Shown here: positions 3,736-51,930 of the stretch, piece by piece
Position numbering within the stretch: the stretch's first letter is position 1
Layout of the letters: each line of letters starts with the position of its first letter
Assembly: GCF_000009905.1 (NCBI RefSeq)
Contig: NC_006177.1
Coordinates: forward strand, 310,001 to 374,000
Length of the DNA: 64,000 bases
Reading direction: 5' to 3'
Source of the DNA: Symbiobacterium thermophilum IAM 14863
GTDB lineage: Bacteria > Bacillota > Sulfobacillia > Symbiobacteriales > Symbiobacteriaceae
The notes under the pieces: model-generated
What the model was told of the DNA's origin: nothing
What the model saw: only the letters and a program-made list of their open reading frames with translations
The model's database searches: none
Position numbers and translations under genes: made by a program

Positions 3736-5323
3736 CGTGGGTAGGCCACAACATTTCTGCTGAAAAAAGCAGGACGAGAGATGGCCCCTTCCAAAAGTGT
3801 TGTTGCTGGGAAAACACCAACACAGGGAGGGTCATCTCTCGTCATGGTTGAGATTCGTGCAGACAACGGCTTTTCCTTTGAGGAACTTGAAAGTGGTGTT
3901 TGGCAGCAGGTAGTGGAGTGTTTCCGCGAAGTGCTGGTCGAGGCACTCTCGCGGGTGGACACTTTGCTGTATGAAAACCGGGACGCCCAGCGGTATGTGT
4001 TCAAAGAGATGCGGTCCCGCACCCTCATGACCAAGTTTGGCCCGATCACATTCAAGCGCCGCTACTACTGGGACCAGGAGGAAAAGCGCTTTGTCTTTCT
4101 GCTGGATGAGGTGCTGCAGATCGCAAAGCGGCAGCGGGTGAGTGAATCGGTGAGGGCAGATGCGGTTGAAGCTGCAGTGACGGCCGGATCGTTTCGGGGT
4201 GCGGCAGCCGAGCTGGGGCGGCGGGACTGTCAGGTTTACGTCAGCCACGAGGCGATCCGGCAGTGGAGCATCGAGACGGGAATGGCCCTTGCGGCAGCGC
4301 AGAAGCAGCGGCAGGTGACCGAAGGGGGGACCCGCAAAGTCCGCTTCCTGTACATCGAGGCGGATGGATTCTGGCCGGGTCGTCAGCGCGGCAAGAAGGC
4401 GGAAGTGCGGCTGTTCGTGATTCATGAGGGTTGGGTAGAGCGAACCCCGGCTGGTACGGAGTACAGGCTGGTAAACCGCCGCGATTTCATTCCCGACAGC
4501 GGACGGGACAGCTGGGAGCAGTTGAGCGAGTTTCTGGAGAGGGAGTACGATCTCAGCGACACGTGGGTGATCATCAACGGGGACCGGGCCCGGTGGATTC
4601 GGGAGGGCGTGACGTGGTTCCCGAAGGCGCTGTACCAGATCGACCGGTTTCACCTGAAGCAGGAGCTAAACCACGTGCTGCGCCACCAGCCCCGGCTCCT
4701 GGAACGAGCGAACGCTGCGCTGGAGACAAACGACGCCGGAGGATTGCTGGCGGTACTGGAGGAAGCGCGTACTGCTGAGACCGACTCGAAGCGTCGTGGA
4801 GAGATCCGCAGGCTGGTGGCCGACCTCAGGACGATGCCGGAGTCGATACGGGACTACCGCGTCCGACTTCAAGAGCGGGGCGTCAGCGTTGAAGGGTTAC
4901 GCGGCCTGGGTGCAGCGGAAGGGGCGGTGGAGCGGTACTCAGCACGGTTGCGGAAGGTCGGCCGGAGCTGGTCCGAGAGGGGCTTGAAGGCGATGATGCA
5001 CGTGCTGGCCGCCTACTTTCACGGCACTTTGCGTGGGGCCGTGGAGATGGTGGAACGCCAGCTGGGACTCGAATCACTGGCTGCAGTTCGGGAAAAGGTG
5101 CGGCACCGGGTCGTGGAGACCGTGGGGCGGGGCATTGAAGGAGTCCGCCACGGGCGCATGCCGATCTTGTATGCCGGTCGGAACGCCAGCGGCGGATACT
5201 CTCGGATGCTGAGGGCGGCCGCCGGCTTCACCAAGTAGAAGAGGCAACAGAGGCATTCGGCGCCAATTCATGAACCAAAATCATACAGAACACTTTTGGA
5301 AGTGCGACGTACCCACTTTCACT
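3736..5323 (+). mobile_element. ISLre2-type insertion sequence
   Basis: The element surrounds one transposase gene. Its ends form imperfect inverted repeats: an outer GTGGGTA motif and an inner CTTCCAAAAGTGTT (left about 3787-3800; reverse complement at right about 5287-5300). The length near 1.6 kb fits the family. Borders are estimated from the repeat match; no target-site duplication was confirmed. It lies between the IS256 fragment and the graspetide-like cassette. Confidence 0.6.
3844..5238 (+). CDS. ISLre2-family transposase (UPF0236)
   Basis: A 464-residue protein of the UPF0236 family, which are transposases of ISLre2 elements. Recognisable segments are the N-terminal REVLVEALSRVDTLLYENRD, the central MTKFGPITFKRRYYW and the catalytic-core stretch FLYIEADGFWPGRQRGKKAE, with INGDRARWIREG carrying a further acidic residue and YQIDRFHLKQEL after it. 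An upstream ATG at 3781 lies inside the inverted repeat, so I prefer the ATG at 3844 behind GGGAGGGTCATC. It appears full length and undamaged. Confidence 0.88.
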   Translation: MVEIRADNGFSFEELESGVWQQVVECFREVLVEALSRVDTLLYENRDAQRYVFKEMRSRTLMTKFGPITFKRRYYWDQEEKRFVFLLDEVLQIAKRQRVSESVRADAVEAAVTAGSFRGAAAELGRRDCQVYVSHEAIRQWSIETGMALAAAQKQRQVTEGGTRKVRFLYIEADGFWPGRQRGKKAEVRLFVIHEGWVERTPAGTEYRLVNRRDFIPDSGRDSWEQLSEFLEREYDLSDTWVIINGDRARWIREGVTWFPKALYQIDRFHLKQELNHVLRHQPRLLERANAALETNDAGGLLAVLEEARTAETDSKRRGEIRRLVADLRTMPESIRDYRVRLQERGVSVEGLRGLGAAEGAVERYSARLRKVGRSWSERGLKAMMHVLAAYFHGTLRGAVEMVERQLGLESLAAVREKVRHRVVETVGRGIEGVRHGRMPILYAGRNASGGYSRMLRAAAGFTK

Positions 5324-5359: not shown

Positions 5360-5388
5360 TTGAAGTGGCGAAGGTTAAGCGATACAAT
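5360..5388 (+). promoter_or_regulatory. Predicted sigma-A promoter of the peptide cassette
   Basis: TTGAAG (5360-5365) and TACAAT (5383-5388) are separated by 17 bp, an ideal housekeeping spacing. Transcription would start near 5395, leaving a short leader before the ribosome-binding site GGGGGACGAG and the GTG at 5423. A perfect TTGACA at 5350 is 27 bp from the same -10 and so is less likely to be used. Confidence 0.55.
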
Positions 5389-5422
5389 ATCCACGTAAAA
5401 CATAGTGAAATGGGGGACGAGT

Positions 5423-5650
5423 GTGACGCTAGGAAGTAACCATCCGTTACTCAAGAGGGCATTTGTGTATCCCGGTGGAACTAAAGTACCAGACTTGACA
5501 GGGTGTTGGTATGACCCGAGACTCGGGGTCTGGTTGACGATAGAGGGCGACAAGACAGTCCCACTGGTCAAGTCCAACAATCCCGAGAAGCCTCGCCCTG
5601 TAACCAAGAAGGCCGATCGTGAGACAGGTGAAGACCTAAAGGGGACTTAA
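5423..5650 (+). CDS. Candidate graspetide precursor peptide
   Basis: A 75-residue peptide read from the GTG at 5423, which has GGGGGACGAG just upstream; an in-frame GTG at 5405 lacks a ribosome-binding site. I recognise no protein family. The C-terminal 15 residues, TKKADRETGEDLKGT, are packed with side chains that can form omega-ester or omega-amide links (Thr and Lys donors, Asp and Glu acceptors). The N-terminal 55 residues would be the leader. The gene ends 7 bp before an ATP-grasp ligase of the graspetide type, the expected precursor-enzyme arrangement. Local GC is clearly below that of the chromosome. The role as precursor is inferred from position and composition. Confidence 0.6.
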   Translation: MTLGSNHPLLKRAFVYPGGTKVPDLTGCWYDPRLGVWLTIEGDKTVPLVKSNNPEKPRPVTKKADRETGEDLKGT

Positions 5651-5657
5651 CTGGGAT

Positions 5658-6614
5658 ATGCTGAGACCTGAAGTCTTGATTTTATCCAATCGGCACGATT
5701 ATGCCTCGGACTACATTTGCTCACAGCTGTGGGAGCAAGGAATTCCATACTTGAGGCTTAACACGGACGACATGCCAGAGATGGAGTTATGCTTGTACCC
5801 TACCGAGCCACGTCTCGAAGGTGTTGTTTCCGGTCTAGAATTCTGTATTGATTCTGCTCTGCGGTCCGTTTATTTCAGGTGTCCGGTCTTCCTGAGGGAA
5901 ATGCCGGGCATAGCTCTGCCGGCTCATGATCAAATGGTTCGTTCTCAATGGGCATCATTTGTCAGAAATCTTACCGTCTTCCAGGAGGCTTTGTGGGTAA
6001 ATCACCCGGGCAAAACATACTTGAGTGAAAACAAAGCACTACAGTTACTCGAGGCTCGCAAGGCAGGTCTAACAGTACCTAGGTCCATAGTGACAAACAG
6101 TACTAAGAAAGTGACTACAGAGTTTGCAGGCGAGTCTCGTGTCATGCTAAAGAGTTTGGACACTCTATTGGTTAGGCAGGGTGATGTAGAAGCATTTGCT
6201 TATGCCGTTCCATGGAACTTATCGGAACTTGCAAAGGAAACGATGAGCGCGGCTCCAGCTACTGTACAACCTTACTTTGAGCCTAAGGTGGACTGGAGAG
6301 TGACGGTGGTTGGCAAGAAGCTCTTTGCGGTAAAGATACTTAAGGACGAGAAGGGTGTATCTGGAGACTGGAGGTTGGAAAAAGACAGGGTCCGATTTGT
6401 TCCGTCTAATCTTCCTGCTCCTGTTTCGTCTGCGTGTCTACGACTTACTAAACAATTAGGTCTCATTTTTGGGGCCATAGACCTTGTAGAAGTAGGGGGC
6501 GAGTTTGTTTTCCTTGAGATTAATCCTACCGGGGAATGGGCATGGTTGGTTGAGCAGGCCGGGTTGCCGATTGATCGTGAGATTGCAAAGATTCTGCGAC
6601 AGGGGGAGCTGTAG
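5658..6614 (+). CDS. ATP-grasp ligase, graspetide (MvdD-like) type
   Basis: A 318-residue ATP-grasp enzyme. The N-terminal pre-ATP-grasp domain reads VLILSNRHDYASDYICSQL and includes LRSVYFRCPVFLR, matching the (V/I)WxRRP segment of MvdC/MvdD-type maturases. NKALQLLEARKAGLTVPRS begins the nucleotide-binding region, DWRVTVVGKKLFAVKI and FLEINPTGEWAW (metal-binding Glu and Asn about residue 289) complete it. Such enzymes phosphorylate Asp or Glu side chains of a precursor and join them to Thr, Ser or Lys. The 7-bp gap from the small upstream gene and the tight link to the downstream membrane gene suggest one operon. A RimK-like ligase acting on another substrate is the main alternative. Confidence 0.82.
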   Translation: MLRPEVLILSNRHDYASDYICSQLWEQGIPYLRLNTDDMPEMELCLYPTEPRLEGVVSGLEFCIDSALRSVYFRCPVFLREMPGIALPAHDQMVRSQWASFVRNLTVFQEALWVNHPGKTYLSENKALQLLEARKAGLTVPRSIVTNSTKKVTTEFAGESRVMLKSLDTLLVRQGDVEAFAYAVPWNLSELAKETMSAAPATVQPYFEPKVDWRVTVVGKKLFAVKILKDEKGVSGDWRLEKDRVRFVPSNLPAPVSSACLRLTKQLGLIFGAIDLVEVGGEFVFLEINPTGEWAWLVEQAGLPIDREIAKILRQGEL

Positions 6615-6619
6615 GTCAA

Positions 6620-7231
6620 TTGTCGTTTGTTAGTAAGTTAATAGACATAATGCTTGATGAAATTCTGCCGTATGCCGGAGCTTGGGTAGCACAACGACGT
6701 CTCGTAGAGGAGATTCGACCGATGATCGAGACGGGGGAACTACCACCTGACAGGGAAAGGTATGTAGAGATTGATCTCGGCACATTGGAAAGATTACATG
6801 CTTCTGAGAAAGATCGCAAGAAGGGAATTGAGGAGAAGGCGAAAGCAAACTTGGTTGCAGTCACTGTATCTTTTGCACTATTGTCATCTGTCATCGGTCT
6901 CCTTAGGGAAGGTAATCCGTTTATCAAGCACGGTGCCCTTGGCATAACTCTAACCATCTTTCTTGCCGTAGGCCTAATTTCATTATTACTTGGAGGATTA
7001 GCCGCCTTAAGAGCCCTGCGAGTTGACCAAATGTGTGATTTGTATATACAAACAGAATATCGCCTGTTGGGAGCGCCTGAAACAGAACGGAAAAGAGAAC
7101 TTGTGCTTGCTATCTCCATAAATGAACGAATAACGAATATTAGAAGCAACTTCGTGGATGCGAGTTATACTCATATTCGCAACGGAATCCTAATAATGGC
7201 GTGTTTCGGCCTCTTTTTGATTTTCCATTAA
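6620..7231 (+). CDS. Membrane protein of the ATP-grasp cassette
   Basis: A 203-residue protein starting at TTG, with AGGGGGAG shortly upstream inside the end of the ligase gene. Residues 1-75 are soluble and charged, with likely amphipathic helices. Membrane segments are predicted at about 77-95, 105-130 and 187-203, with a cytoplasmic-looking helical loop between the second and third. No family was recognised; it is not an ABC exporter or peptidase by sequence. Its position after the ligase suggests export, immunity or membrane anchoring for the modified peptide, but that is inference. It has the same low GC as the two preceding genes. Confidence 0.65.
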   Translation: MSFVSKLIDIMLDEILPYAGAWVAQRRLVEEIRPMIETGELPPDRERYVEIDLGTLERLHASEKDRKKGIEEKAKANLVAVTVSFALLSSVIGLLREGNPFIKHGALGITLTIFLAVGLISLLLGGLAALRALRVDQMCDLYIQTEYRLLGAPETERKRELVLAISINERITNIRSNFVDASYTHIRNGILIMACFGLFLIFH

Positions 7232-7243
7232 AGGACGGCGCAG

Positions 7244-7480
7244 GTGAGCGGGGGTAGTTCGGGCTGGAGCGCACCCCGCCACTGGAAGCTCGGGATACTG
7301 TACTATCATTACCCCGAGGACAGACGGATGGTGGTGCCCAGGCGCAGGGGCATGGGCATGACGCTCAACTCTGCCCACAAGCATACGTGGTTCTTCGTGG
7401 GCGCCCTGTTCCTGCCGCTGGTGACGGTTCTGCTGTTGATCCTGGTGTCGACCGCAGCAGGAGAGATTTCGGTCCCTTGA
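7244..7480 (+). CDS. Small DUF5808-like membrane protein
   Basis: A 78-residue protein. The segment LGILYYHYPEDRRMVVPRRR followed by GMGMTLNSAH matches the DUF5808 pattern (GxxYYNPxDPRxxVPKRxGxGxTLN) that is usually found at the end of larger membrane proteins; here it precedes a single hydrophobic helix, WFFVGALFLPLVTVLLLILV. Start GTG at 7244 has AAAGGACGGCGCAG in front. It returns to the high GC of the chromosome, so it is probably not part of the preceding cassette. Function unknown. Confidence 0.65.
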   Translation: MSGGSSGWSAPRHWKLGILYYHYPEDRRMVVPRRRGMGMTLNSAHKHTWFFVGALFLPLVTVLLLILVSTAAGEISVP

Positions 7481-8295: not shown

Positions 8296-9207
8296 TCACG
8301 TATCCCTCCTGTACCACACCGGCGATGGGGGAGGCGGCAGGGGCCCGGCAGGGTTCGGCTCGGGCCAACCGCGAAACCTCCTGTACCCTTTGTGCGCCAG
8401 TAGATCGAGCAAGTCGCCGAGAATCCGGCGGCGATACGGGTCTTGCTCCTGGGTGTAGAGCTCCCGGAACACGGCCCACATGGCCGGCCAGCCGATCCAG
8501 TAAGTCCGGTCCAGAAACCGCTCCCGGAGTCTGTTGCCCCGATTGGAGCCTGCTTCGCCTGCCAGGGCTGCAGCGCTCGTTTCCAGGTCGCTCCGGGGCA
8601 GCACCGAGTGGCCGGTGACATACAGCAGGATGCCGTCTCCGCCTTGTTCTGACAGCCAGTCGGTCAGATCTAGAAATTCCCGGGCCAGTTGATCGGGCAG
8701 TGCTGAGCGTTCTTCCACATCACCGTTGGCTTCGGCACCAGGTCTGTCCGACTTGGGCGATCGATACTTGCACTCGACCAGGACCAGAAACGGCTTCCCC
8801 TCATCGCCGGACAACTGGATGAGCACGTCCGGCTCGCAGCGCTTCAGCCATGGCCAGAACTGGTAGTCGGGTTCAGGGCTCACCGTCTGCGGCAGTGGGC
8901 AGCCCCGGTTCCCCTGGAGATTGACCGCTTGTTGCAGCACCGGTATCAGCCCGCGGTCGGGTGGGAGGTACCGGAGCCGGCCAAACACATCGGAAGTGAG
9001 TAGATCCTCGAGGCGGTCAAAGGCGTTGGAGCCGCTCTGGGATATCTTCCCACGAAGTTCGGCATGGGGCACCCATCCGTCCCTCCTTTGTGCACAAATT
9101 GGAGTCTCAGGAGAGGCCCGGCCGCAGTTCCGACCGCAAGGGGAAATAACCAGTCGCGCAAGTAGCGAGGGTTCCATGTCCGACTTCTGCATCGGCGGTG
9201 TGTACAT
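8296..9207 (-). CDS. PD-(D/E)XK nuclease-like protein
   Basis: A protein of up to 303 residues. EPDVLIQL (Asp127) followed by LVLVECKYRS (Glu145, Lys147) is the D-(E)xK active-site pattern of the PD-(D/E)XK nuclease fold. FDRLEDLLTSDVFGRLRYLP upstream resembles the helix that precedes it. The C-terminal half is helical and ends in a proline-rich stretch. The first ATG (9207) has GGAAGCAGG close by; the ATG at 9177 is an alternative. It is directly coupled to the unknown gene at 7660-8295. A restriction-like role in a small defence operon is plausible; no methyltransferase is adjacent. Confidence 0.65.
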   Translation of the reverse strand: MYTPPMQKSDMEPSLLARLVISPCGRNCGRASPETPICAQRRDGWVPHAELRGKISQSGSNAFDRLEDLLTSDVFGRLRYLPPDRGLIPVLQQAVNLQGNRGCPLPQTVSPEPDYQFWPWLKRCEPDVLIQLSGDEGKPFLVLVECKYRSPKSDRPGAEANGDVEERSALPDQLAREFLDLTDWLSEQGGDGILLYVTGHSVLPRSDLETSAAALAGEAGSNRGNRLRERFLDRTYWIGWPAMWAVFRELYTQEQDPYRRRILGDLLDLLAHKGYRRFRGWPEPNPAGPLPPPPSPVWYRRDT

Positions 9208-9448: not shown

Positions 9449-10828
9449 TCACTTGAGCTGGTACCCGAGCTTGGCCGCCTCGGCCTCGACCTTCTCCCGG
9501 TAGGGCCGTAGGGCCTCCGCCAGGGGCCTCACCCGCTGGGTCAGGGTCTTGACCTGTTCGGCCGTGTAGCGGTGCAGCTCGGCGGCTCGCTTGCCCACGG
9601 CCGCCCGGACTTCCTGGACCGCCAGCCTCCTCTCCAGGGCGATCCGTGCCCGAGTGGCGTTGTATTCAGAGACGACCCGGTCCACGGCCTCTTTCAGCGC
9701 CGCCGAGTCGAAGATCTTGCCGCTGAGGCATTTCCGCACCTCGGCGAGCATCCCCTCCGGAGTCAGCTTGTCCAGGTTCTTCGAGAACTCGGAGGCCATC
9801 CGGCGGAGTTCCTGGCGCTGCCGGGTGAACCACAACTCCACGGCCCGGTAGCGCAGGTCGTCCGCACTGGGCCAAAGGATCCGCCGCCAGACGGGGGAAC
9901 GGGGGAGCTCCGCCAGCACCCGCTGCTGCTCCTCCGCCAGCTCCGCCTCCGCTCGCAGGAGTAGCTCCGGCAGCCGCTTCCCCAGGTCCTGGGCCACGTC
10001 CCAGAAGCGGTTCCGGGCTTGGCGGGCGGCCTCTTCGTGCCGCCTCCGGATCGCCTGGATCTCCGCCAGCAATTCGGCCCGGTGGATGTCGATGGTCCGG
10101 ACCACCTTGGCCACCAGGATGTTGTGCTCCTCCGTCGCCGTCTTGTGGAACCGGGCGTACTGCTCCTGGTACTCCTCCAGCGCCTTCCGGAGGGCGGCGA
10201 GCTTGATGTCGTTGGTGATGGCCCGCCCCACCATCGAGCCCGCCAGGCCGGCCAGGAGGGCGCCGATGACGGTACCGAGACCCGGGAGAATCGCCGTGCC
10301 GACGGCGGCTCCGACCTTCGCCCCCACCCATCCGCCGATCCCAGTGCCGGCGATGTCGAGGGCCGCACTGCGGAGGCTCGTCCCCAGGTCCGTCTGCCCC
10401 AGGGCCAGGTGCTGGATCTCCCGCAGGGCCGAGAGGGCCGCAGGGACGACGGGGAAACTGGGACCGATATCCAGTCCTTCGACGCCGTCCAGGGTTTCCT
10501 GGGTGAGCTCGGCGATCTGGTCCGCCTCCAGACCCTCCAGAGCCAGGACGTGGTCCTGAAGTTCCGGGGGCAGTTCTGCCGCCACCTCCGGGCTGGTGAT
10601 CACCGGGATGTCCGGGTACTCCGCGAAGTGTTCCAGAATTTGATCCGGGTCATCGGTGATCTTCACGTTGAATGGCTGCCCTTCGACCAGGAGGTCCCAC
10701 CCGGGCTGGTTGGGCACGTCGGCCAGTTCCACCTGATAGCCCTGCCGGGCCAGGACATCCGCGGCCACCACCTCGCCCACGTAGCCCTTCAGCCGTTCAA
10801 ACCAGCCTGCGTAGGCTTCGGGATCTAG
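9449..10828 (-). pseudogene. Nuclease-like/glycine-zipper protein beheaded by IS
   Basis: About 459 native residues remain. The N-terminal part, GEVVAADVLARQGYQVELAD then NQPGWDLLVEGQPFNVKI, has the layout of restriction-like (PD-(D/E)XK) domains, though the usual Q/E-x-K is N-x-K. At about 160-205 is a strong glycine zipper (GGWVGAKVGAAVGTAILPG) likely to enter a membrane; residues 215-460 are charged coiled coil. The frame runs into the terminal repeat of IS1380-like copy A at CTAG (10825-10828), and a GTG in that repeat is the only apparent start. The true N-terminus is not on the other side of the IS, which instead adjoins an IS110 gene. Expression is doubtful. Confidence 0.7.
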
Positions 10829-12564
10829 CTCAAGTTTCACGCGAACAACTCGACATTCGTGGTGTTAAAAGGGCGTATGGGTAGGGAGTGGCCCGGTTCA
10901 GGGTAATCTCAGCTCCAGCCAGGGGAGTACCCCGGCTGAACACCAACCGCAGCGTGTCGCCGAGGCACCGAATGGTTGCTCGGCACCGGGCCGCTACTCG
11001 TACCAAGAGTCGACTCCCCGCCTCGGCCAGTTTGGGCGAGTTCGTGCTCAGAAACCGCCAAGCCCAGCGCACCAGGTTGAAGGCGAACAAGACCAGCTGC
11101 GTGAAGGCGGCGTTGGCCTCATACTTCCGCAGCCGAGGAGTACCAAAGTGGAACGTTCCCTTCCACTCCTGGAACCCGGCTTCGATGGTCTGCCGTCCAT
11201 GGTAGAGCTTGACGACCTCTGTCGTGGTGAGCTCCTCAGGCTGGAGCGTAGTCAGGATGACGCTGCGGACCTCCCGGCCATCGGCGTCCCAGCGGCGCAT
11301 GGCGACCAGTCGCACCGGATACGGTGCGAGCAAAGTGGGGCCAGGTACGGTAACGGCTTCGGAGGCAAACCGGTTCTTCTCGACTTCAACCCAGTTCTCT
11401 GCCGGTACAGCGTCGAAGAGGTGCTTGTAGGCGACGTTGCTCCCGGAGTAGGACTTGATGGTGAACTCATACCCCAGTTCCAGCAGGCGCTGGATCACTT
11501 CCGGCGTGCCAAAGGCGCTGTCAGCTCGCAGCAGAATACGGAGGGGAGCCAGGTTCGTCCGATTCTCCTGCCGGTACTGCCGGAGTCGCTGGTTCACTTC
11601 ACGGAGGTGCTGAACCTCCTCCTGGAACTCACGCTGCAGCTTCTGCTTCCGGCGGGCGCTGCCCTTGCCTGATACCGTCTGCAGTTGCTGATACAGCTGC
11701 CTGACCCGAGCCTTCTGCTGAGCCAGGCATGCCTCGACCCATTCGACTCGCCGCAGGGGACGACCAATCCGGGCTTCGATCCTGGGAATCAGTTCGAGCA
11801 GGCAGGCGCCGGAACGGCTGTTGGCCTTGCCGGACTTGAGAAGGCCGTCGATGGCAAAGCGCTGCTGCTTCCCGCTGAGGAAGGCGGCTGCGATCTGATA
11901 GCCTCGGGCCAACTTCCCCTGGATGTAGCCGAAGTCGGTACCGGTGTACTGCCTGGTCTCGCCCCGAACCTTCTGGCCGGTGAGGTCAATGTCGACGATG
12001 ACCATTCCGGAGCGGTCTGGACCTGCTACGGCAGCCACCTCCTGCTGAAGCAGCGGGGCCTGGATCTCAGCGAGTGCGTCGGAAAGCTGCTGAACGTTCT
12101 CCTCCGTCAGCTTGCTGAAGGTCGCACAGACGGTGGAAAAGTGAGCAAAGCGTTCCTGCCCCCAGGCTTGAGCTACGGCAGGATCGGCAACCAGCGGCTC
12201 AGGGTCGAAGTTGAGATCCTTCATGTAGCGACAGTTGCCGAGAATGGCAACCAACGCCTCGACCACCTTGTCAACCGGCGTGTGGGCGTAGGTCTTCTGC
12301 TTGATGCGCAGGTGCCGATTCAGGATCTCAACCAGGTTGAGTCTTTGAGCTACCCAGCCAAGAGCGACGAGAAAACCATGTCGGGTGGTGGACTTGATGG
12401 CTTGCGCAGCGATGTTGGGTGTCGTACCATGAGACTGCATCAGTCGAACCTCCACATGGTGGTTTAGGAGGGGCAACTCCCACCCATGTATCATTGGTTC
12501 AGACTGATGCTTTTTCAATGGGTTTCCATTGCACGAAGTCCGGGTTATTCACGCGAAACTTGAG
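10829..12564 (-). mobile_element. IS1380-like element, copy A
   Basis: A 1,736-bp element with terminal inverted repeats CTCAAGTTTCACGCGAA (left) and its near-exact complement at the right, flanked on each side by CTAG. Copies B (33712-35447) and C (56012-57746) are almost identical, so transposition was recent. Left and right flanks come from two different interrupted genes, showing that this copy is a recombinant of two insertions. Confidence 0.88.
10830..12440 (-). CDS. IS4-superfamily (IS1380-like) transposase, copy A
   Basis: A 536-residue DDE transposase. Catalytic segments are VIVDIDLTGQ, LLRADSAFGT and YHGRQTIEAGFQEWK, the last a perfect Y-x2-R-x3-E-x6-K signature of the IS4 superfamily. 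I chose the ATG at 12440 (MQSHGTTPNIAAQ) because GGAGG lies 8 bp upstream; longer frames start inside the terminal region. The stop codon lies inside the left terminal repeat. The gene is intact, as is copy C; copy B is frameshifted. The family name IS1380 is a best guess from size, 4-bp CTAG flanks and motif layout. Confidence 0.87.
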   Translation of the reverse strand: MQSHGTTPNIAAQAIKSTTRHGFLVALGWVAQRLNLVEILNRHLRIKQKTYAHTPVDKVVEALVAILGNCRYMKDLNFDPEPLVADPAVAQAWGQERFAHFSTVCATFSKLTEENVQQLSDALAEIQAPLLQQEVAAVAGPDRSGMVIVDIDLTGQKVRGETRQYTGTDFGYIQGKLARGYQIAAAFLSGKQQRFAIDGLLKSGKANSRSGACLLELIPRIEARIGRPLRRVEWVEACLAQQKARVRQLYQQLQTVSGKGSARRKQKLQREFQEEVQHLREVNQRLRQYRQENRTNLAPLRILLRADSAFGTPEVIQRLLELGYEFTIKSYSGSNVAYKHLFDAVPAENWVEVEKNRFASEAVTVPGPTLLAPYPVRLVAMRRWDADGREVRSVILTTLQPEELTTTEVVKLYHGRQTIEAGFQEWKGTFHFGTPRLRKYEANAAFTQLVLFAFNLVRWAWRFLSTNSPKLAEAGSRLLVRVAARCRATIRCLGDTLRLVFSRGTPLAGAEITLNRATPYPYALLTPRMSSCSRET

Positions 12565-12568
12565 CTAG

Positions 12569-13027
12569 GCGAGGTAGGCGACCTGCGCCGGTATGCGGAC
12601 TGGCGGCAACTTCGCAAGCTGGCGGGCTACAACCTGACAGAGAACACGTCGGGGCAGCGGGACCGCAGCCGGACGCCCATCAGCAAGCGCGGCCGGCCTG
12701 GACTGCGCCACGTGCTGTACCAGATGGCGATGACGGCGGCCGCCAAGAACCGGGAGTTTCGAGCGCTGTACGAGCACTTCAGGACTCGCCAGCAGAACCC
12801 GCTCAAGGGCAAGCAGGCCCTGGTGGCGCTGGCGTGCAAGCTGTTGCGGGTGCTGTTCACCCTGGTCAGGAAGCAGTGTAGCTATGATCCGGCCAGGGCC
12901 TTGGGGGCCTGGCGGGCGGAGCAGTTAGGTCTCGCCGCCTGAGAGGGCGGTGTGCCGATAGATGTGCCGCTTTGGGTGGGGGAAGCCGACTATGGCTGGA
13001 AGGGCATGACCCTGCAGCAGAGTACTA
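12569..13027 (+). pseudogene. IS110-family transposase, 3' fragment and right end
   Basis: Coding to 12942 gives the last 123 residues of the transposase that is complete at 32330-33625, differing by only a few residues. It contains the C-terminal serine-domain pattern TPISKRGRPGLRHVLYQMA. The fragment starts exactly at a CTAG that is also present inside the intact gene (33249-33252), marking the insertion point of an IS1380-like copy. Bases 12943-13027 match the right end of the full element up to AGTACTAG. It lacks the DEDD domain and cannot act. Confidence 0.9.
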
Positions 13028-13229: not shown

Positions 13230-14279
13230 GTGTGTCTGAGCCAAGTGGCAGGACGCGAAATGGTGCGAACCAGCGAGATTGAGAGAGTTTGAGTGCATAA
13301 CATCGAGATAGGCCATAGTACCAGATCGGGGAAGCCCGGGATGGGAAGGGCCAAACGTCAGGAAAGGGGTGAACCCGTTGCGTTCGAGCAGCCCGCGACA
13401 AACGCAGAAGACCCCGAACGGGACCTGATCGCCGGAGGTAGCGGTGAAGCCGCAAGGGACGGCGAGAGGGCGGAGTGGGCAGCCGGCACAAGGCGGAGCG
13501 TCACCCCGCGGGGAGCAAGGCAACCTGATGGAACGGGTGGTGGCCAGGGAGAACATGCTGGCCGCGCTGAAACGGGTGGAGCGAAACGGAGGCGCCCCCG
13601 GCGTGGACGGTGTCCCCACCGAACGGTTGAGGGACCACGAAGCGGGCGGGGGAGCGGGTATTCAGGAGTATCCGCGGCTACCTGGAGGAACGGTTACGGC
13701 TCAGGGTCAACGAGCAGAAGAGTGCGGTCGACCGCCCATGGCGGCGACAGTTCCTCGGGTTCAGCTTCTACAAGAACCGGGGAGTTCACATTCGCATGGC
13801 GGATAAAGCCCACAAGCGGGTGAAGCGGGAGCTCCGCAGGATGACCAAGCGCAGCCGCAGCCAGAGCATGAAAGAGCGGATCCAGCGCATTAACGCATAC
13901 CTGCGTGGCTGGATCGGCTATTACGCGCTCTCGGATGCCGACTCGGTCTTCAAAGAGATCGAGGGTTGGCTCCGTCACAGACTGCGAGCATGCCTGTGGA
14001 AACAGTGGAAGCGCCCCCGCACGCGCCTGCGGGAACTCCGCGCTCTCGGGCTACCTGAGTAGGTCGCTCGCGAATACGCCTACAGCCGCAAGGGCGTGTG
14101 GCGCATGGCGGGCGGACCAATGAACAGAGCCCTGGGCGACGCCTACTGGCGTGCCCAGGGACTGCTCAGTCTAACCGAATGCTACGAAGCAACTCGTCAA
14201 TCCTGGCGAACCGCCGGATGCGGACCCGCATGTCCGGTGGTGTGAGAGGACGGGGGCTAACCGCCCCCTCCTACTCGAT
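13230..14279 (+). mobile_element. Decayed group II intron
   Basis: The 5' end begins GTGTGTCTGAGCCAAG, a plausible group II start (GUGYG). The 3' end has a domain V-like hairpin (CCGGATGCGGACCCGCATGT, about 14214-14233), a domain VI-like hairpin with GGGGGCTAACCGCCCCC, and the usual CTACTCGAT terminus. Total length is about 1.05 kb against about 1.9 kb for intact relatives, because most of the reverse transcriptase has been deleted. The catalytic RNA ends are kept, so splicing in trans with a maturase from elsewhere is conceivable but untested. Between 13028 and 13229 I see no gene. Confidence 0.8.
13528..14062 (+). pseudogene. ltrA: Group II intron reverse transcriptase/maturase remnant
   Basis: Two parts of an LtrA-type protein are joined near 13645 by an internal deletion and frame change. 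The first gives MERVVARENMLAALKRVERN then GGAPGVDG (the RT-0/1 start). The second continues after the lost RT domains with LEERLRLRVNEQKSAV, FLGFSFYKNRGV and IQRINAYLRGWIGYYALSD (the thumb/maturase X region). All catalytic RT motifs, including YADD, are missing. Further C-terminal similarity (YSRKGVWRMAGGPMNRALG) continues beyond the stop at 14062 in the same intron. Confidence 0.85.
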
Positions 14280-33711: not shown

Positions 33712-35447
33712 CTCAAGTTTCACGCGAACAACTCGACATTCGTGGTGTTAAAAGGGCGTATGGGTAGGGAGTGGCCCGGTTCAGGGTAATCTCAGCTCCA
33801 GCCAGGGGAGTACCCCGGCTGAACACCAACCGCAGCGTGTCGCCGAGGCACCGAATGGTTGCTCGGCACCGGGCCGCTACTCGTACCAAGAGTCGACTCC
33901 CCGCCTCGGCCAGTTTGGGCGAGTTCGTGCTCAGAAACCGCCAAGCCCAGCGCACCAGGTTGAAGGCGAACAAGACCAGCTGCGTGAAGGCGGCGTTGGC
34001 CTCATACTTCCGCAGCCGAGGAGTACCAAAGTGGAACGTTCCCTTCCACTCCTGGAACCCGGCTTCGATGGTCTGCCGTCCATGGTAGAGCTTGACGACC
34101 TCTGTCGTGGTGAGCTCCTCAGGCTGGAGCGTAGTCAGGATGACGCTGCGGACCTCCCGGCCATCGGCGTCCCAGCGGCGCATGGCGACCAGTCGCACCG
34201 GATACGGTGCGAGCAAAGTGGGGCCAGGTACGGTAACGGCTTCGGAGGCAAACCGGTTCTTCTCGACTTCAACCCAGTTCTCTGCCGGTACAGCGTCGAA
34301 GAGGTGCTTGTAGGCGACGTTGCTCCCGGAGTAGGACTTGATGGTGAACTCATACCCCAGTTCCAGCAGGCGCTGGATCACTTCCGGCGTGCCAAAGGCG
34401 CTGTCAGCTCGCAGCAGAATACGGAGGGGAGCCAGGTTCGTCCGATTCTCCTGCCGGTACTGCCGGAGTCGCTGGTTCACTTCACGGAGGTGCTGAACCT
34501 CCTCCTGGAACTCACGCTGCAGCTTCTGCTTCCGGCGGGCGCTGCCCTTGCCTGATACCGTCTGCAGTTGCTGATACAGCTGCCTGACCCGAGCCTTCTG
34601 CTGAGCCAGGCATGCCTCGACCCATTCGACTCGCCGCAGGGGACGACCAATCCGGGCTTCGATCCTGGGAATCAGTTCGAGCAGGCAGGCGCCGGAACGG
34701 CTGTTGGCCTTGCCGGACTTGAGAAGGCCGTCGATGGCAAAGCGCTGCTGCTTCCCGCTGAGGAAGGCGGCTGCGATCTGATAGCCTCGGGCCAACTTCC
34801 CCTGGATGTAGCCGAAGTCGGTACCGGTGTACTGCCTGGTCTCGCCCCGAACCTTCTGGCCGGTGAGGTCAATGTCGACGATGACCATTCCGGAGCGGTC
34901 TGGACCTGCTACGGCAGCCACCTCCTGCTGAAGCAGCGGGGCCTGGATCTCAGCGAGTGCGTCGGAAAGCTGCTGAACGTTCTCCTCCGTCAGCTTGCTG
35001 AAGGTCGCACAGACGGTGGAAAGTGAGCAAAGCGTTCCTGCCCCCAGGCTTGAGCTACGGCAGGATCGGCAACCAGCGGCTCAGGGTCGAAGTTGAGATC
35101 CTTCATGTAGCGACAGTTGCCGAGAATGGCAACCAACGCCTCGACCACCTTGTCAACCGGCGTGTGGGCGTAGGTCTTCTGCTTGATGCGCAGGTGCCGA
35201 TTCAGGATCTCAGCCAGGTTAAGCCTTTGAGCTACCCAGCCAAGAGCGACGAGAAAACCATGTCGGGTGGTGGACGTGATGGCTTGCGCAGCGATGTTGG
35301 GTGTCGTACCATGAGACTGCATCAGTCGAACCTCCACATGGTGGATTGGGAGCGGCCACACTCCCACCATGTATCATTGGTTCTGACTGATGCTTTTTCA
35401 ATGGGTTTCCATTGCACGAAGTCCGGGTTATTCACGCGAAACTTGAG
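33712..35447 (-). mobile_element. IS1380-like element, copy B
   Basis: Same ends as copy A and flanked by CTAG at 33708-33711 and 35448-35451. It is inserted exactly at the right border of the IS110 element: the empty form AGTACTAGCGCC is visible at 13023-13034. The transposase is frameshifted. The next 110 bp (35452-35560) are AT-rich and contain no gene I can identify. Confidence 0.88.
33713..35322 (-). pseudogene. IS1380-like transposase, frameshifted (copy B)
   Basis: This copy is one base shorter than copies A and C. At about 35021 the run GGTGGAAAAG has lost an A, moving the frame after roughly 100 codons. All three catalytic segments lie after the shift in a frame of about 400 residues that has no proper start. 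It is presumably inactive but could be mobilised by the transposase of copies A or C, because the ends are intact. Confidence 0.9.
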
Positions 35448-42949: not shown

Positions 42950-43998
42950 GTAGCACCCAGCTGCAAGGCTATGTGAGGGTTGAAACAGGGGAAGTGTCAC
43001 CTGAGGCGTCATCCTCGTAAGGCTTAGGATGGTTTGAAATCTAATCAGATTGCCTAGCACCCGGCCGCGAGACCGGGTAAGGATTGGCCACTTTTGCTCG
43101 GACTGGTACGAGGCGGTCGCACGTAGCACCCGGCCGAGAGTCCGGGTGAGGATTGAAACGTGTTCGATGAGGGGGCAATTGAGTTCAACTCGCGGGGTAG
43201 CACCCGGCTCTTGAAACCCTGTCACCCTGGACGCTTCGACTGTCACCGCTGGTAGCACCCGGATCCAAGGCCGAGCAAGGATTGAAACGCCGAGTACCTC
43301 TCGGCCACCATCTGAGGCACGCCCAGTAGCCCTCGGCGTGGGCTGGGTGAGGATTGAAACCAGAGAGTGAACGCCCTGGAGAGGTAGCAGAGCGCCCGTA
43401 GCAGCCGGCCCTAAAGCTGGGTGAGGATTGAAACACGATGGCCTCAGCCATATCTGCCATGGCTCATGTAGCACCCGGCCCAAAGGCCGGTGAGGATTGA
43501 AACTCGTCGATGTCGATCACGCCGCCCAGGAGCACCTGCCAGTGGCACCCAGCCCTAAGGTAGGGTGAGGATTGAAACATCATCTACTACGCCGCCATCA
43601 TCGGGGACAGCCCTGGTAGCACCCGCCCCCCAGGCTGGGTGAGGATTGAAACAGTGCAACCTCAATCAGCAGGGCCATGTGCTTAGGCAGCGCCCGGCCG
43701 TAAGGCCGGTAAGGATTGAAACGACGAGTACGGCAAGCCGGTCGCCATCATCCGCCGGTAGCACCTGGCCCAAAGGCCGGGTGAGGATTGAAACGGCATC
43801 GCCCTCGCAGACATGACCCTTGGACATGATCGCAGCACCTGGCCACAAGGCCGAGTGAGAATTGAAACAACGTCGCCGGCCTGCTCCGCGGTGACTAGAA
43901 GAGGTAGCACCCCACCACAAGCCGGGGGAGGATTGAAACCCCTCAACGATCGCCGTGTCAATCAGGTGACCGATGGTAGCACCCGGCCACAAGGCTGG
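42950..43998 (+). CRISPR. Degenerate CRISPR array 1 (about 15 repeat units)
   Basis: Units start at about 42950, 43054, 43123, 43197, 43252, 43326, 43398, 43468, 43542, 43616, 43686, 43758, 43832, 43904 and 43976. They are versions of the 37-bp array 2 repeat (GTAGCACCCGGCC ... GGATTGAAAC), but hardly two are alike. The hairpin stem and loop vary, some units are 35-36 bp, the fourth is a stub, and the last is cut by the IS1182 end. The 3' ATTGAAAC handle is kept in most. Spacers are mostly 34-39 bp. No leader is obvious before the first unit. Confidence 0.92.
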
Positions 43999-45481: not shown

Positions 45482-47547
45482 GTAGCACCCGGCCGCGAGG
45501 CCGGGTGAGGATTGAAACAGGTCGGCGCTGTACTCGGCGTCAGTCTTCTGCCGGTAGCACCCGGCCGCGAGGCCGGGTGAGGATTGAAACGATGATGTTG
45601 CCGGCCAGGATGCGAATTTCGGCCAGGTAGCACCCGGCCGCGAGGCCGGGTGAGGATTGAAACCTGCAGGGGGATGATGTTTGCGCCCTCCACCGGGCCG
45701 GGTGTAGCACCCGGCCGCGAGGCCGGGTGAGGATTGAAACACCACAGTGGCCGCCCGGTTGATGGTAACGGTCCGGTAGCACCCGGCCGCGAGGCCGGGT
45801 GAGGATTGAAACCCCCAGGAGGAAAACCGGTTGCTCCGCCAGCTCATGTAGCACCCGGCCGCGAGGCCGGGTGAGGATTGAAACTTCTCGACCATGGCGA
45901 TCTCTTTGGCGCAGTTGACGGGTAGCACCCGGCCGCGAGGCCGGGTGAGGATTGAAACATCGATATGAAGTGGATAGAAGAGGAAGAAGGTGAGTAGCAC
46001 CCGGCCGCGAGGCCGGGTGAGGATTGAAACGTGTTCGAGGAGAACGGAACCCCGGTTGATGTTGCGGGTAGCACCCGGCCGCGAGGCCGGGTGAGGATTG
46101 AAACGTCATCCAGAGCGCCACCAGGGCGGCGCCCACGGGTAGCACCCGGCCGCGAGGCCGGGTGAGGATTGAAACATCGCTCATTCCTCCAGATGCGCAA
46201 GACCTTGCGCTGGGTAGCACCCGGCCGCGAGGCCGGGTGAGGATTGAAACATGACCCTGCAGCCTATCTGGGCGGCGATGCAGGGGTAGCACCCGGCCGC
46301 GAGGCCGGGTGAGGATTGAAACGAGCGGATGGCCGCCGGTCTGAAAAACGCCCACCGTAGCACCCGGCCGCGAGGCCGGGTGAGGATTGAAACATGATGA
46401 CCATCTCGATGCAGGAGATCGAGCGGGAGCGTAGCACCCGGCCGCGAGGCCGGGTGAGGATTGAAACGTGGCCGAGGCCGAGAGGGTGAAGCACTACGCC
46501 GGGTAGCACCCGGCCGCGAGGCCGGGTGAGGATTGAAACATGGTGGAGTCGAGGATGAACCAGCGGCCATCGTGGTAGCACCCGGCCGCGAGGCCGGGTG
46601 AGGATTGAAACCTCCTTCAGTGAGTTGATAGTCCCCTGCACTTAGTCGTAGCACCCGGCCGCGAGGCCGGGTGAGGATTGAAACCTCGGCCTCGCATGCG
46701 ACCTGCTGGGAATCGGACGTAGCACCCGGCCGCGAGGCCGGGTGAGGATTGAAACCTCATCGTCCCACATGACGATTGCCTGCCCTGTCCGCGTAGCACC
46801 CGGCCGCGAGGCCGGGTGAGGATTGAAACTCCCGGTAGCCGGCGAGGGTCGCCTGCTCGACGATGGTAGCACCCGGCCGCGAAGCCGGGTGAGGATTGAA
46901 ACAGGAATCCGTGGTCCAAGGAGCACTGGAACCTGACGGTAGCACCCGGCCGCGAGGCCGGGTGAGGATTGAAACCTTCGTGCAGTACGACCTCCACGTG
47001 ATGCGTGAGGGGTAGCACCCGGCCGCGAGGCCGGGTGAGGATTGAAACTTCGGGGTGCGGTGGGTGCCCCCCACGGAGCGCACAGGGTAGCACCCGGCCG
47101 CGAGGCCGGGTGAGGATTGAAACCTGGTCGCCACCAAGAAGGCCCCTGGCCGCGAGTAAGGTAGCACCCGGCCGCGAGGCCGGGTGAGGATTGAAACGTC
47201 TTCCCACTCCACAACGCCGCCGAGGGCCTCGGGTAGCACCCGGCCGCGAGGCCGGGTGAGGATTGAAACCTCGGTCGGCCGCGAAAAGTCCTACCCACAC
47301 GAGTAGCACCCGGCCGCGAGGCCGGGTGAGGATTGAAACCTTACGCCGTGGTTGAGGTGGACTAACCAGCCCAGGTAGCACCCGGCCGCGAGGCCGGGTG
47401 AGGATTGAAACGTGAATGGGGTTGCGCTCGCGCACTTCCTCTTTAGGTAGCACCCGGCCGCGAGGCCGGGTGAGGATTGAAACACCAGCTACCGACAGAT
47501 GCAGCTCGCCTACAAGGCCTGTAGCACCCGGCCGCGAGGCCGGGTGA
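45482..47547 (+). CRISPR. CRISPR array 2 (28 repeats plus a truncated one), type I-C
   Basis: Twenty-eight 37-bp repeats start at 45482, 45554, 45627 and so on to 47447, then a 27-bp stub at 47521-47547 lacks the last 10 bp. The repeat is GTAGCACCCGGCC-GCGA-GGCCGGGTG-AGGATTGAAAC: a 9-bp hairpin for Cas5c cleavage and an ATTGAAAC handle. All copies are identical except one (46866, GCGAAGCC). Spacers are 34-40 bp and none is repeated by eye. The new end is at 45482 next to the leader. Frames through the array that read NPHPASRPGAT are artefacts of the repeat. Confidence 0.97.
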
Positions 47548-51642: not shown

Positions 51643-51727
51643 ATCCCGTTCAAGGCGCGCACAGCAATGCCAGCCATAGCCCAGCCCTCCCCTCGAAGGC
51701 GCTTGGTCCAATCCGCTCTCCCTGAAA

Positions 51728-51905
51728 GCGGATGACCGGCAGGTCTTCGGACTTGCAGGCGGGGCGGCACCATCTGCCGCCTGTCCTACTGGCCACGCTT
51801 CCCAGGCCGGAGCCCAGTGCTTGCTGTGGCGGTCGTTCCTGCTCACCGCTGCGGGGCAGTCCCTGATTCGCACAGGGTTCCCTTTTCAGCACCCGATAGG
51901 TGCAC
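51728..51905 (-). promoter_or_regulatory. Cobalamin riboswitch
   Basis: Read on the minus strand from 51905, the leader has GGTGCCTATCGGGTG-like P2 sequence, then AAAAGGGAACCCTGTGCGAA and CAGGGACTGCCCCGC, the conserved B12-box core, and later GCAAGCACTGG and GGGAAGCGTGGCCAG before closing helices. It precedes nrdA by about 200 bp. B12 control of a class I reductase is known in actinomycetes that also have a B12-dependent class II enzyme. Confidence 0.88.
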
Positions 51906-51930
51906 CGGTCACAACCCCAATATATAGTGT

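Follow-up and report, generated by a model that had tools for sequence, protein, structure and literature searches.

The window analysed here (a stretch of 64,000 nucleotides, positions 310001–374000 of a single-contig genome of 3,566,135 bp) carries at 5423–7231 three co-directional genes on the + strand, which encode a small peptide, an ATP-grasp ligase and a membrane protein with three predicted transmembrane (3TM) helices. We interpret them as a mobile graspetide cassette of about 1.8 kb, in which a cross-linked peptide that is not exported would act together with the membrane partner in phage defence or superinfection exclusion. This reading as a whole has, in our estimation, about an even chance of being right; the graspetide identity of the gene set, as judged from sequence comparisons, is well supported. 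The features considered are the following:

5423..5650, + strand: precursor peptide gene, an ORF of 75 aa with a GTG start (in-frame alternative GTG at 5405); the gene call is supported by 12 more precursor homologues, each located before a related ligase
5603..5647, + strand: predicted core or tail of the precursor, TKKADRETGEDLKGT, from the alignment of 13 precursors and the identity of tail versus leader
5658..6614, + strand: putative ATP-grasp graspetide synthetase, 318 aa, from TIGR04187, PDB profiles, fold match and tree
6620..7231, + strand: three-TM membrane protein, 203 aa, TTG start, from hydropathy and homologues in sister loci
3781..5238, + strand: ISLre2-family transposase (NF033529 1e-117, PF06782 6e-200), left border of the cassette and context rather than part of the system

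Most elements of the initial annotation were recovered. The 75-aa peptide gene with its distinctive 15-residue tail is present, the third gene encodes a three-helix membrane protein (hydrophobic helices at about residues 77–95, 106–124 and 184–202), the GC content is lower in the gene set than in its surroundings (0.44–0.51 within the cassette versus 0.56–0.70 outside), and the insertion sequence announced at the border corresponds to the ISLre2 transposase on the left. The proposed promoter was not confirmed: the candidate at 5360–5388 matches at 9 of 12 positions, and the region does no better than shuffled sequence, with 2 promoter-like matches observed versus 2.4 expected.

Other elements were recorded in the window. 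Directly after the cassette, at 7244–7480 (+), lies a gene for a 78-aa protein with a DUF5808 domain (5e-9), which was not noticed in the related cassettes. A 200-bp piece is repeated with 96% identity on the same strand at 2627–2827 and 12369–12569, flanking the cassette and its neighbours; the latter copy overlaps the start of a transposase-like gene (10830–12518), and more copies are found near 35251 and 57552. One of the flanking copies is a remnant, and the cassette and its neighbours could have moved as a composite unit. Farther away, the window includes CRISPR arrays of the CRISPR-DR9 type (about 28 repeats, 45482–47483, and three weaker repeats at 43123–43794), a cobalamin riboswitch at 51721–51924 (−, 109 bits) and a group II intron match at 14209–14279 (+) with reverse-transcriptase-like ORF pieces directly upstream.

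The ligase gene begins 7 bp after the stop of the peptide gene, as had been annotated, but the description of its product as MvdD-like has to be modified. Because TIGR04187 is the best-matching profile (8e-54, 182.9 bits), followed by MvdC (6e-39), MvdD (2e-29) and, much lower, RimK, the protein is by sequence nearer to the TIGR04187 (TgmB) family than to MvdD; the curated cut-off of that family, 350 bits, is not reached. A PDB profile search with the ligase retrieved AMdnB, MdnC, CdnC and PsnB, and the structural model matches the folds of AMdnB, MdnC, PruB and PsnB (TM about 0.8). Both in profile and in fold searches graspetide macrocyclases rank first and RimK/LysX after them, and the ligase, as modelled, belongs to the graspetide-macrocyclase fold. 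Residues D275, E287 and N289, which we take to be the expected ATP-grasp metal ligands, are invariant in the ligase alignment. In the tree, the ligases paired with the tail type described below (KK-tail ligases) form a single clade with a support of 100/100, characterized by the signature E[IV]NPTGEW (EINPTGEW in the window); other ligases show NPNGQW or similar.

When homologous peptides were searched for beside related ligases, 13 precursor-ligase pairs were obtained, the window included, with the precursor (62–75 aa) directly before the ligase in both Bacillota and Alphaproteobacteria. All 13 precursors end in the consensus [ST]KKxDxExGEDxK, and the mean pair identity is 0.75 for the tail, 0.30 for the leader and 0.41 for the ligase (nine representatives). 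Hence the peptide does have homologues next to related ligases and its tail is co-conserved with them, so that two of the three outcomes named in the initial annotation as refuting it did not occur; that the tail does not resemble microviridin or plesiocin cores also agrees with it. No tail lacks the first Thr/Ser, either Lys or any of the four acidic residues. In a single divergent tail, SKKHDVERGEDKK, the inner Thr is replaced by Arg, and this Thr is therefore not essential. Two leader motifs are kept in most homologues, HxLLxxA (with its HxL close to the N-terminal end) and Y(D)xxxGxW. The survey by Makarova et al. (2022, PMC8939145) describes a motif of graspetide leaders, Phhx(1,2)h, found in no more than about half of the precursors; HPLLKRA in the window leader fits this motif, and most homologues have HxL without Pro. 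A ligase of predicted MdnB/C-PsnB fold, an adjacent cognate precursor and a core with candidate donors and acceptors are the sequence traits of a graspetide gene set, and all three are found here.

The precursor by itself is a poor query. That of the window had no match in Pfam, NCBIfam or PADLOC, and tblastn against plasmids gave chance-level matches only (E 1 to 6). A looser tail pattern retrieved 7 new stretches from viral contigs, none of them with a ligase, and a further match to the tail pattern (L012) was discarded as a chance occurrence inside a CobT-like gene. Complete cassettes were recovered by other routes. A protein search identified the same three genes in Halobacillus, where the ligase is 42% identical; plasmid copies are present in Rhizobium, Agrobacterium, Martelella, Azospirillum and Mesorhizobium; the tail-pattern search found the complete set in two virus records, including a Mu-like prophage; and genome searches added three further Bacillota genomes. 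The carriers of the 13 precursors are thus plasmids, the Mu-like prophage and chromosomes. The family is rare: ligase relatives occur in 2 of 397 genomes, besides that of the window, in an even sample of Bacillota, in none of the 299 genomes near that of the window, and in 1 of 44 and 2 of 399 genomes around Halobacillus, which is itself counted. A DNA search of E. coli genomes with one of the cassettes (L011) gave no match. In the Mesorhizobium copy (L009, 4941–6000) the ligase is truncated, with an IS66 element behind it, and the precursor is intact. That these ORFs have not come together by chance follows from the recurrence of their order in distant bacteria and from dN being lower than dS in all three genes (close pairs compared). 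The cassettes have no conserved exporter, protease or methyltransferase, and for the first two this agrees with the initial annotation.

A homologous membrane protein is encoded 3′ of the ligase in nearly all cassettes, and the hydropathy profiles of nearly all family members show three TM helices in the same spacing. The order precursor-ligase-3TM was also found in five sister cassettes, from a Leptospira phage, a faecal phage contig, Agrobacterium T29, Sinorhizobium and Croceicoccus. Four of the five, all but the Leptospira phage cassette, have repeated LxTxTx4ExDD cores. The membrane proteins of the KK clade and of the sister cassettes are homologous (hhalign 97.5%, E 7e-12; reversed control 0.6%), and the third gene is therefore an old partner of these ligases and not a chance neighbour. 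The sister cassettes differ in having several core repeats per precursor and ligases with NPNGQW instead of NPTGEW that fall outside the KK ligase clade; the likeness of their leaders to that of the KK precursors is not significant (E 0.05). By sequence, the cassette is one member of a wider precursor-ligase-3TM set, with a sister branch that carries repeated TxTx4ExDD cores. The membrane protein of the window had no match in PADLOC, and a structure search with its model (PDB, viral) returned no informative match, generic helix bundles only, which does not argue for a new fold. Similarity to the Pycsar effector PycTM appears in relatives, below the confident threshold both for the sister locus L028 (E 9.8e-5) and in hhalign (E 2.9e-4 over 156 columns, probability 40%); the label PycTM-like is used here as a lead, from weak profile similarity of relatives. 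Two membrane genes are interrupted: that of G372 (L025, 7242–8123, −) has an in-frame stop between the second and the third TM helix, and that of the closely related G421 copy stops early near a contig end.

Several cassettes are located among antiviral systems. One (L041) is flanked by Gabija (GajA 5e-184, GajB 2e-148) and CBASS (4TM effector 1e-116, cyclase 1e-141); L042 is near BREX (BrxL, PglZ, PglX) and L043 near DUF499/DUF1156, and these last two cassettes share 93.3% identity over 1598 bp and yet are found beside different defence systems. Among the plasmid copies, L005 adjoins DSR1, L006 and L007 have AbiEi/AbiEii beside them, and L007 also Lamassu LmuA/LmuC. The Rhizobium and Agrobacterium plasmid copies have their upstream genes in common and different genes downstream. 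In the Mu-like prophage (L010) the cassette has a neck/tail-completion gene on one side and the head maturation protease on the other; antiviral genes at prophage cargo hotspots are known (PMC9122126). No strong match to a known defence system was obtained near the Halobacillus, Rhizobium and window loci. Within 4 kb 3′ of the window cassette, two genes match candidate defence families: 8296–9207 (−), PDC-M15A (5e-12), and 9449–10840 (−), PDC-M72B (2e-8), the latter with a glycine-zipper domain. As a control, 17 random 10-kb windows with 85 proteins were drawn from the same records; at E<=1e-30 they yielded four single-member family matches (at most 3–4 of the 85 proteins, two of them SspH models), counted as three windows. 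Defence-positive were 5 of 8 cassette loci versus 3 of 17 control windows (Fisher p=0.039), in a small sample with flanks picked by eye, of differing length and not sampled blindly, in which some defence systems lie several kb away. The comparison is supportive of an association with defence islands, but not strongly so. The presence of a mobile cassette in defence islands and in a prophage shifts its likely function from an exported product to a defence or exclusion module. The initial annotation is supported in part: the gene set is of graspetide type, with a core unlike those that it named; the wider precursor-ligase-3TM set and the mobile setting had escaped it.

What is known of graspetides concerns mainly protease inhibitors and other natural products. 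We propose that the ligase binds the precursor leader and joins side chains within [ST]KKxDxExGEDxK, the likely donors being Thr/Ser and the two Lys, and the acceptors Asp, Glu, Glu and Asp; from the chemistry of the family, the bonds would be esters or amides. As conserved genes for an exporter or a leader peptidase are absent from the cassette, the product is probably intracellular, where it would act with the co-encoded 3TM protein. The cross-linked peptide would gate this membrane effector, either activating or silencing it, and the effector would damage the membrane once infection disturbs the peptide, the ligase or their complex. That the core has stayed frozen speaks for a fixed partner inside the cell and against an antibiotic that diversifies.

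The main competing explanation, which we regard as possible but doubtful, is that of an exported graspetide (a protease inhibitor or a small bacteriocin), with the 3TM protein as exporter or self-immunity factor and the leader trimmed by a host peptidase. In PMC13097080 the characterised graspetides count as natural products, and several are protease inhibitors; transport has been proposed for an unnamed membrane family of thuringinin loci without transporter by Makarova et al. (2022, PMC8939145); and plasmids and phages are also common carriers of bacteriocins. What weakens it is that the core is near-invariant from Bacillota to Alphaproteobacteria under ligases that share just 0.41 identity, whereas in the same survey (Makarova et al., PMC8939145) cores vary even under related ligases. 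Exporter and peptidase are moreover not conserved, and defence systems are frequent neighbours. Rather improbable, in our view, is a toxin-antitoxin-like addiction module, in which a toxic membrane protein silenced by the modified peptide or the ligase maintains the element and has no part in phage defence. Carriage by plasmids and a prophage, a compact operon with partly overlapping genes, the small size of the 3TM protein and the two interrupted membrane genes, which fit the loss of a costly toxin, agree with it; copies are, however, also found on chromosomes within defence islands, and the mechanism overlaps with that of a defence module. Very unlikely is a ligase that leaves the tail uncyclised and adds amino acids in a RimK-like manner or forms a cross-link between the peptide and a second protein, for instance the membrane partner: RimK/LysX share the ATP-grasp superfamily and the tail is rich in Lys with invariant acceptors, but graspetide macrocyclases are the best sequence and fold matches, ahead of RimK, and precursor-ligase pairing is a typical graspetide trait.

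The proposed defence module was compared with known systems. Actinobacterial TgmA/TgmB (TIGR04187) also has a small precursor directly 5′ of an MdnC/PsnB-type ATP-grasp ligase. The window ligase scores 183 bits against a cut-off of 350 and falls outside the tgmB branch of the tree, and the cassette has no methyltransferase, a different core and a 3TM gene 3′ instead; leader homology between the window precursor and TgmA is not significant. The thuringinin-type loci with the ‘cluster 18’ membrane protein (PMC8939145), compared here by their description, are also graspetide loci with an uncharacterised membrane protein, mostly without a known transporter. Pycsar PycTM, the CBASS 2TM/4TM effectors and Panoptes OptE have in common with the cassette a small multi-TM protein beside an enzyme for a small signal. 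In the cassette there is no nucleotide cyclase or nucleotide-binding domain, and a modified peptide would serve as its putative signal. With the order peptide-ligase-membrane protein and no pyrimidine cyclase, by which Pycsar is recognised, the cassette is not Pycsar, nor is it, by the cut-off, a member of TIGR04187. In Panoptes, a small molecule that the cell makes constitutively silences a membrane effector (PMC12657218), and, by analogy with this precedent, a peptide version of silencing would fit the cassette.

In the open literature covered, no paper linking ATP-grasp peptides with anti-phage defence was found. The [ST]KKxDxExGEDxK group may already be included in the 43 RODEO groups of PMC13097080 or the 174 families of PMC8939145. 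We advance only tentatively that this is the first phage-defence family in which a ribosomal peptide, cross-linked by an ATP-grasp enzyme, serves as the intracellular signal that gates a PycTM-like effector; it is equally speculative that a near-invariant, unexported graspetide core takes here the place of the cyclic nucleotides of CBASS, Pycsar and Panoptes. A role inside the cell is indicated by a core that stays frozen while its enzyme diverges, in a unit that travels between defence islands together with a membrane partner. If this holds, enzyme-modified peptides would have to be counted among defence signals besides nucleotides.
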